Assembly: GCA_019358945.1 (NCBI GenBank)
Contig: JAHHIE010000005.1
Coordinates: 62,001-126,000, forward strand
Direction: 5' to 3'
Source: Stenomitos rutilans HA7619-LM2
GTDB lineage: Bacteria > Cyanobacteriota > Cyanobacteriia > Leptolyngbyales > Leptolyngbyaceae
DNA: 64,000 nucleotides
How positions within the stretch are numbered: the stretch's first letter is position 1; each line of letters starts with the position of its first letter. A program made the position numbers and the translations under genes. The notes beneath the pieces are model-generated. The model was given only the letters and a program-made list of their open reading frames with translations. It was not told where the DNA came from and did no database searches. Of the stretch, positions 23,906 through 26,831 are shown piece by piece.

Positions 23906-25177
23906 TCAGCCTACCAACCGCAATCCTTTGGTATGCAGGGTTTGCTCAAGTTGCTCCATTTCTTGCAGAGTTTCCCCCGCGACAATGCCGTAAATTTCGG
24001 TATAGATTTTGCCGTATTTCACTTTCTCCAGAGCAGAAAGAATGATCAAGTCCTGTCGTTCTAAATGCGATTTAAGTGTGACTAGAATGGCATCCAGCGT
24101 GCCATCCATGCGGTAGTCGGTGGAGTATTTGGCGATCGTCTTGTTCAACTTCAGCGATTGATGGCGTTGGAGACAGAGCGGTGTGGAACCGTTAATGCGA
24201 AAATTGGCATCGATCGCGTAAAGAGAGCCATCTCGGTCTTCCAAAACATCAAAGCCAATGACACCAAAGTACCCCTGTTGATGAGCATATTGACCGATCG
24301 CGGCGATCATGTCAGAGAATTGGCTCAAATCATGCGTGTAATCAATTACACCTCCTAAATACGTGCCAGTAGCACTAACAAGTTGCTGAGTAACGCCAAT
24401 GAGAGTAATTTCTCTCTGTTTGTTGACATAAAACTGTACGCAATAATTGTGAGTTTCGTTTTTAACAAATTCTGAAACAATGATTGTCCTTAACAGATTA
24501 ATCTTGAGGTATTGCTTCAGTTCTTCAAGGCAATAGTTCAGGTCACTTTGATTGTGGATGATGTAAGTGCCCTCTCCAGAAAGACCGTGAGATGTTTTGA
24601 TCAAGTAAGGGAATGGCCGGGAAAGCTGCATCTGGTCGAGGTTACTGTGATCCACCTGATAAGTTTGATAGGTGGGACAGAGTACCCCCAACTCAGCCAA
24701 GGTTGCTTTACTCAGCAGTCGATAATGCACCTCTGGATTAACGGCATGTTTTTCACGTCTCAGGTGGTCGAAGGGAAAGAGTGTCAGCACTCGATCGATG
24801 CGATCGCTCTGGCTCAGATCATCCAAGTAGGTTGAACAGTCTAGAAATTCTAACTGCTGGTATTGAAAGCCAAAATGGTCTCGCCAATAGTGCATCAGCA
24901 AGTCTTGAGGTGGACTAATCACCACACCGGGCAACGTGTCTCCTAACACGGCCAGATTTTTCCAGGGTTCTTTCTGGCAAATCTTATCGAACGATGTTTT
25001 GGTGGCTTCACTGTTACCATCCTGGAGAAAATATTTCTGAACGTTGGGGTAGGCTGCCCAACGGGCGGTTGCTGGATAGTTCAGGAGCAGCGCATAGTTC
25101 TCAACGTCAATGTCTTGTGCAAAAACATCGGAAAGAGAATTTCCCTGAAAAAACGGAAAGGTGTTCTGAGAAACCAT
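23906..25177 (-). CDS. ATP-grasp ligase of unassigned specificity
   Basis: A 423-residue ATP-grasp protein. The central and C-terminal lobes show FPYLIKTSHGLSGEGTYI (ATP-binding Lys and glycine loop), IIVSEFVKN (hinge), and VIGFDVLEDRDGSLYAIDANFRINGST (metal-binding Asp and Asn-x-Arg-x-N) written here in pieces. The NxRxN-type motif fits amino acid or peptide ligases. The N-terminal 120 residues are not a known domain to me. It begins 11 nt after the wreck of an isoaspartyl peptidase gene on the same strand, so the two probably formed an operon that made and cleaved, or modified, an amide or peptide bond. No product can be assigned. Confidence 0.8.
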   Translation of the reverse strand: MVSQNTFPFFQGNSLSDVFAQDIDVENYALLLNYPATARWAAYPNVQKYFLQDGNSEATKTSFDKICQKEPWKNLAVLGDTLPGVVISPPQDLLMHYWRDHFGFQYQQLEFLDCSTYLDDLSQSDRIDRVLTLFPFDHLRREKHAVNPEVHYRLLSKATLAELGVLCPTYQTYQVDHSNLDQMQLSRPFPYLIKTSHGLSGEGTYIIHNQSDLNYCLEELKQYLKINLLRTIIVSEFVKNETHNYCVQFYVNKQREITLIGVTQQLVSATGTYLGGVIDYTHDLSQFSDMIAAIGQYAHQQGYFGVIGFDVLEDRDGSLYAIDANFRINGSTPLCLQRHQSLKLNKTIAKYSTDYRMDGTLDAILVTLKSHLERQDLIILSALEKVKYGKIYTEIYGIVAGETLQEMEQLEQTLHTKGLRLVG

Positions 25178-25187
25178 ATCAGGGTCT

Positions 25188-25500
25188 TTAGGCGATCGCC
25201 AACGGTTGATCCTTACGGGTAAAAACAGTCGGTTGCTGCAACGCTTCGGTCATATAGGCAACCGCCGTATCTTGCGAATTATAGGCCCAACCGATGCGTC
25301 CCTGACGATCGATTACAATGCAACCTGCTTCACCCTCAACCTGTTCCTTTAAAGTATCGATCGTATGTCGAGACGCTGCTTCTGGGTGTTTGTCTCCTGC
25401 GAAGTCATCGATCACCGTCTTTGGCTGCGACTTTATCTTCTGTCACGGTTTTGGCTCCACCGTGAACAATGATGGCTGGGATAAGTGGATGGGCGAATAA
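25188..25500 (-). pseudogene. Isoaspartyl peptidase/L-asparaginase pseudogene with internal deletion
   Basis: Two pieces of an Ntn-hydrolase remain, in different frames. The N-terminus PAIIVHGGAKTVTEDKV (about 25415-25475) is joined directly to the C-terminal end EGEAGCIVIDRQGRIGWAYN (about 25245-25340). The central part with the autocatalytic Thr is gone, so most of the roughly 300-residue enzyme is missing. Intact relatives remove beta-aspartyl residues and also cleave cyanophycin-derived beta-Asp-Arg. The joint is near 25405-25415. Confidence 0.8.
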
Positions 25501-25671: not shown

Positions 25672-26082
25672 TTAGCGAGTTTTAGAACTCAATAGGTTCT
25701 GAACAGTTTGTAAAATCTCATCTAATCCACAATCCTTGGGCATGACAACGTCTACCTGCAAGCCAAAGGCATTGTCCAGGGTGAGATCGCCACGACTGAT
25801 AAACGCTGACGTGAGAATGGTGAGGGGTGGGCGTTTCAGTTGCGTTTTTAGCTGATGAATGATTTCGATACCGGTTATAGGCGTTTCATGACGATGATGA
25901 GGCGCGATCGTGAAGTCGATGATCACCAGATCGTAAGATTCAAGGGCAGAATTCAAAAAACTCTGGGCATCTGTAAAGGTTGTAACCTCAAAACTCGCCC
26001 TAAAGAAGCGTTGAATGGCAATACACCAACGTTCGTCGTCGTCCAGTACAGCCACCTTGGGCATTGCATTAGTCATTGGCAC
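25672..26082 (-). CDS. Stand-alone response-regulator receiver protein
   Basis: A 136-residue CheY-like receiver. The acidic pocket is VLDDDE (residues 12-17), the phosphoacceptor Asp is in DLVIIDFTI, the switch Ser/Thr is in LTSAFIS, and the conserved Lys is in MPKDCG. An inserted stretch (APHHRHETPITG) after the phosphoacceptor is slightly longer than usual. There is no output domain and no histidine kinase nearby. GTG at 26082 has AAGG 10 nt before it; ATG at 26076 is the alternative start. Confidence 0.88.
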   Translation of the reverse strand: MPMTNAMPKVAVLDDDERWCIAIQRFFRASFEVTTFTDAQSFLNSALESYDLVIIDFTIAPHHRHETPITGIEIIHQLKTQLKRPPLTILTSAFISRGDLTLDNAFGLQVDVVMPKDCGLDEILQTVQNLLSSKTR

Positions 26083-26441: not shown

Positions 26442-26831
26442 ATGGCACCTGCAACTGTATTGCGATTCATGCAAAAGACTGCCGAAGACGAAGCATTACG
26501 GCAACAACTTGAAACCTTGCTGGGTGTTGGTGATGGCAACATTAGCAGCGAAGCCGAGCTAGATGCTGATGAAACCGAAGCGCTGAAGGGAGAACGCGCT
26601 CCCGTAGTGGCGGCCTTTGCCACCCAAAATGGGTTTGCCTTTTCTGCGGCTGATCTCGTCACGGTTGTGGAAGCCTTCCAGAAGCACCAGTTTGGCGAAT
26701 TATCGGATGCTGAGTTTGCGGCCTTAGTGGGTGTTCCAACGGCTGGGGAAGCGGCAGCTCTCAAGGCAACAGCGAGTCCGCTCAAGCGCTTATCACGCTA
26801 CCTAGGTGAAACCTATCTTGGCATTCGTTAG
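26442..26831 (+). CDS. Nif11-domain protein with extended C-terminus
   Basis: A 129-residue protein. VLRFMQKTAEDEALRQQLETLL (split) at residues 6-27 and the later APVVAAFATQNGFAFSAADL match the two helices of the Nif11 domain, but about 25 acidic residues (SSEAELDADETEAL type) separate them, which is unusual. After the domain comes HQFGELSDAEFAALVG and a basic tail (SPLKRLSRYLGETYLGIR). Nif11 domains serve as leader peptides of ribosomally made, modified peptides in cyanobacteria, but no double-Gly cleavage site, Cys/Ser-rich core or modifying enzyme is seen here. It may be a free-standing Nif11 protein. Confidence 0.7.
   Translation: MAPATVLRFMQKTAEDEALRQQLETLLGVGDGNISSEAELDADETEALKGERAPVVAAFATQNGFAFSAADLVTVVEAFQKHQFGELSDAEFAALVGVPTAGEAAALKATASPLKRLSRYLGETYLGIR

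Follow-up and report, generated by a model that had tools for sequence, protein, structure and literature searches.

An intact ATP-grasp ligase beside a destroyed isoaspartyl-peptidase-type gene: remains of a recurrent cyanobacterial gene pair that may make and break a small peptide

The window, by which we mean the whole stretch of 64,000 nucleotides analysed here, corresponds to C105:62001-126000 of a 7.28-Mb cyanobacterial genome, and it carries an ATP-grasp ligase gene preceded by the remnant of a hydrolase gene (Table 1). The remnant is closely preceded, on its own strand, by a gene for a stand-alone response-regulator receiver protein (25672-26082, minus strand; PF00072, E 2.3e-6, not reaching the curated cut-off), and a 129-aa protein whose N-terminal part is a Nif11 domain (PF07862, E 1.6e-5) is encoded at positions 26442-26831 of the plus strand. 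No Rfam elements were found within the window.

Table 1. Features of the ligase locus (positions in the window)
Feature	Positions	Strand	Predicted function
ATP-grasp ligase, intact, 423 aa (P0001), LdmS-like	23906..25177	-	L-amino-acid / small-peptide ligase
Gap of 10 nt from remnant to ligase start, as short as in the intact operons of close relatives	25178..25187	-	
C-terminal hydrolase remnant (Asparaginase_2 clade), about residues 219-298 plus stop, no catalytic residue	25188..25430	-	
Deletion junction, ~197 codons missing relative to six relatives, frame shifted	25415..25430	-	
N-terminal hydrolase remnant (PAIIVHGGAKTVTEDKVAA), in a different frame, with no usual start codon in place	25417..25485	-	

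When intact hydrolases from relatives were used as queries, their residues 1-23 matched positions 25485-25417 with 74% identity and their residues 222-298 matched positions 25421-25191 with 67.5% identity (E 5.5e-29), the two pieces lying in different frames. An earlier note on this DNA had described a destroyed isoaspartyl peptidase gene beside the ligase, with its N- and C-terminal pieces fused out of frame over a large deletion, and both statements were confirmed by these matches, while the distance to the ligase that it gave as 11 nt had to be corrected by one nucleotide. ATG, GTG and TTG are all absent from the remnant at the position where the relatives start. The C-terminal piece alone matched PF01112 (Asparaginase_2) over profile positions 252-303. 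None of the Asparaginase_2 active-site motifs is left in the window copy, all of them having been situated in the deleted segment, which carried the nucleophile and all substrate-binding motifs. On this sequence evidence, the remnant upstream of the ligase is a destroyed gene of the isoaspartyl-peptidase type.

The ligase reading frame starts with ATG and has no internal stop, and its product matched Pfam ATP-grasp_3 (PF02655) above the cut-off (E 3.5e-8). Residues K194, D310, D323, N325 and R327, which we take by analogy to be ATP/metal ligand positions of the ATP-grasp fold, were invariant in 25 of 25 relatives; the window protein has the domain, the ATP lysine and the metal-binding D/N residues that define ATP-grasp enzymes. 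The ligase thus looks as intact as had been claimed at the outset, yet it departs from its relatives at 9 of the 208 columns conserved in at least 93% of them, against a median of 2 among the relatives and 1 to 6 in its sisters. Since these departures outnumber those of the sisters, yet none is at a presumed ATP or metal residue, the ligase is likely, though not certain, to be still active. Its dN to relatives was similar to that among paired relatives; synonymous sites were saturated and dN/dS values were therefore left unused. Over all loci, hydrolase-less ligases were in general no more divergent than the others, and relaxed selection on them was not seen (P 0.6).

The best NCBIfam model for the window ligase was LdmS (NF047900), with 108.3 bits against an equivalog cut-off of 475. 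A profile of 25 ligases matched a single PDB protein, 7r8p/7r8q (E 3.5e-19), which is S. aureus SAOUHSC_02373, named L-aspartate-L-methionine ligase (PMC12235713). An AlphaFold model of the ligase was obtained with moderate confidence (pLDDT 80.5, pTM 0.83, residues 35-68 poor), and its top fold match was again 7r8q (E 7.3e-21), with TM-scores of 0.69/0.75 that indicate the same overall fold; the next matches were the ATP-grasp peptide or amino-acid ligases 3wvq/3wvr, 8ynd and 3vot.

A ligase scan with one genome per species gave 76 further ligase loci, all cyanobacterial to judge from their titles. Remnant and ligase had been taken in the earlier note for a former operon, an idea that would fall if intact copies of the two genes were never found together in relatives. 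A clade-specific Asparaginase_2 protein adjoins the ligase in 41 of the 76 loci, and the ligase-hydrolase pair is real and recurrent. The hydrolase copies beside the ligases mostly share 60-87% identity and belong to one tight clade (the copy at L037 is cut by a contig end). Gene order is mostly hydrolase-ligase, with ligase-hydrolase at L027, L037, L038, L039 and L063 and also in the pair carried by a plasmid of Gloeothece citriformis PCC 7424, and the spacing runs from overlap to ~420 nt across pairs, being 6-26 nt or a slight overlap between the intact genes of several relatives. The remaining neighbours of the pair vary by locus. HflX, identified by sequence reading upstream of the pair in Nostoc, was taken as lineage synteny, and a glutathione-reductase-like gene was rejected as a clue to a thiol peptide, as it is not a steady neighbour, unlike the hydrolase. 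This gene is found 36 nt upstream of the ligase at two loci (L028:1837-3279 and L090:6504-7946), both in genomes without the partner hydrolase. One genome that has the pair also has a second, solitary operon-type hydrolase (L137:2572-3513). The folds and chemistry of both enzymes are already known; the pair and its product are apparently undescribed so far, as had been supposed of the pathway, and no description of an ATP-grasp enzyme paired with an isoaspartyl peptidase was found in the literature searched, whose reach did not extend to subscription papers and the 2009 amidoligase survey (Iyer and co-workers), so that an earlier mention there is possible; a broader search gave a single hit, on an unrelated matter.

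The best PDB matches of the intact partners were isoaspartyl peptidases/L-asparaginases (E 2.5e-57), and the partners keep the Thr nucleophile at the self-cleavage site as well as the STGG, GRVGD and TTG-GE motifs that mark members of Asparaginase_2. In a tree, three groups were resolved, namely the operon clade, canonical IaaA (support 100) and a cyanophycin-locus group (support 96). At the variable position of the motif S-x-T-G-D-G-E, Asp was present in 53 of 53 operon-clade members scanned, with Ile in canonical copies and Tyr in cyanophycin-locus copies, and this clade-specific Asp might shape the leaving-group pocket. The operon hydrolases would be an unrecognised specialised subfamily within the proteins annotated as isoaspartyl peptidase/L-asparaginase. 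Besides the remnant, the window genome has a single PF01112 gene (C105:168090-168992); it is intact, is situated on the same contig at a distance of ~81 kb and encodes a canonical IaaA-type product that is ~31% identical to the operon-type hydrolase.

The cyanophycin-locus copies (L134, L135 and L136) form a third Asparaginase_2 subfamily, with S-x-T-G-Y-G-E as their motif and 37-43% identity to the operon clade, and come from apparent cyanophycin loci of ligase-free relatives, an assignment made by sequence reading of the adjacent CphA- and cyanophycinase-like frames. No cyanophycin genes were recognised beside the ligase-hydrolase pair, and in the window genome cphA is on contig C32 and cyanophycinases are on C32 and C12, the window being on C105. 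A small-peptide or a cyanophycin-related pathway had originally been suggested for this locus; the former remains the best reading, and the latter was rejected, given that the cyanophycin genes are on other contigs and that the operon hydrolases form a clade apart from the cyanophycin-locus subfamily.

Among 386 sampled cyanobacterial genomes, the ligase was present in 16 and the clade hydrolase in 8, all 8 of them among those 16 (hypergeometric P ~1e-12, a value that treats genomes as independent and ignores kinship). Within the order to which the window genome belongs, the clade hydrolase is intact in 7 genomes, and each of these has the ligase. The hydrolase clade was thus not seen without the ligase, and the ligase was often alone. 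A genome-wide search of 35 genomes in which the ligase has no adjacent hydrolase detected a clade hydrolase elsewhere in 11 and none in 24, 23 of which keep a canonical-type IaaA. One of the 11 distant hydrolases is next to a second full-length ligase copy, and three are next to a ligase fragment. At L094, L095 and L097, an intact operon-type hydrolase adjoins a short ligase fragment and a full ligase is encoded elsewhere in the genome, that is, the pair is broken in the opposite direction. Hydrolase remnants near the ligase were also detected at L029, L077, L012 and L013, and at L012 and L013 the ligase itself is likewise broken. At least 17 changes of the paired state are needed on the ligase tree, of which well-supported branches force 8; loss of the hydrolase has occurred repeatedly. 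In the window genome the loss is probably recent, because its ligase falls within a clade of 14 members of which 12 are paired.

The patchy distribution, the varied contexts and the plasmid copy could be taken to mean that the two genes have no functional link and merely travel together on mobile DNA. We regard this as very improbable, since the two gene orders are both maintained and the hydrolase occurs only where the ligase is present, even when it is no longer adjacent. It is generally known that ATP-grasp enzymes can use ammonia, and this would suit a two-protein synthase with the Ntn hydrolase as the source of ammonia for its ATP-grasp partner, as in a glutamine amidotransferase. Amidotransferase activity does occur in some Ntn hydrolases (PMC6376114); however, the best structural relatives of the ligase are peptide ligases and many genomes keep the ligase without the hydrolase, which makes such a synthase very unlikely.

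We consider it reasonably probable that ligase and hydrolase constitute a module that makes and breaks a small peptide, probably a beta-aspartyl one, and that the window keeps the make half only. For substrate, bond type, product and biological role we propose that the LdmS-like ligase would activate an amino-acid carboxylate, most likely that of aspartate by family analogy, as an acyl phosphate, and would join it to an amine to give a dipeptide or a comparable small amide. The partner hydrolase, which has a Thr nucleophile, is self-processing and shows the isoaspartyl-peptidase fold, would to judge from its family bind the L-aspartyl group, and would most likely cut this product at the beta-aspartyl bond, thereby recycling it or switching it off. 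That the breaking enzyme was never seen without the making enzyme is as expected of a hydrolase specific to the product. In the window genome, the large deletion and frameshift would have left synthesis alone, and the product may then be stable and accumulate, be exported, or be broken down by the housekeeping IaaA encoded elsewhere on the contig. Several observations weigh against a make-and-break module: the ligase shares no more than ~21% identity with LdmS and scores 108 bits against the cut-off of 475, the name Asp-Met ligase given to LdmS implies no beta linkage, isoaspartyl peptidases double as L-asparaginases so that the ligase product need not be the hydrolase substrate, and the hydrolase is missing from roughly half of the genomes that carry the ligase.

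The hydrolase could instead feed the ligase: working chiefly as an L-asparaginase, it would release aspartate for use by an Asp-X ligase, and its loss would be tolerated because aspartate is available anyway. Both activities exist in this fold group, the one-way dependence and frequent loss suit an accessory supplier, and the ligase resembles an Asp-using enzyme; nevertheless, aspartate is a common metabolite, and a tightly conserved partner devoted to its supply, with a residue fixed across the clade, is hard to explain, and we hold this reading to be rather unlikely. A further alternative is an editing or damage-control role, in which the proper ligase product would be an alpha dipeptide and the hydrolase would remove a wrong, beta-linked side product. 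Although the ligase can persist without the hydrolase and LdmS is by name an Asp-Met ligase, IaaA enzymes are promiscuous (PMC10206079) and could already do such editing, and we judge this role to be distinctly unlikely.

A more specific form of the make-and-break proposal is put forward tentatively: the LdmS-like ligase might produce a beta-aspartyl dipeptide, whose second residue may be basic in view of the fixed Asp beside the hydrolase active site, for the dedicated hydrolase to clear. Several lineages, among them the present one, might have since given up this removal, so that what had been a reversible pool would now be made in one direction only. The module is scattered through cyanobacteria, including Nostoc, and probably makes and breaks an as yet undescribed small peptide. 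It predicts a substrate class, and strains with natural single losses are places in which to seek the product.

Compared with known systems, the ligase shares with LdmS the NYCVQF, G..TQL and YAID-NFR-NGST blocks, whereas it is ~21% identical over the fold match, and has a different ATP-loop sequence; in the single staphylococcal relative inspected, no hydrolase adjoined the gene. The intact partners share the full active-site motif set and a similar length with IaaA, EcAIII and human ASRGL1, but form a separate clade only ~31-37% identical to the IaaA of the same genomes. The isoaspartyl dipeptidases of cyanophycin loci (PMC10206079) have the same fold family and finish the degradation of a beta-aspartyl product there; the cyanobacterial ones, however, belong to a different subfamily, in which the marker position is Tyr. 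Finally, although Anbu is proteasome-like and is encoded in a four-gene operon whose ATP-grasp protein is glutathione synthetase-like, the Anbu operon (PMC6376114) likewise encodes an ATP-grasp amide-forming enzyme together with an Ntn hydrolase.
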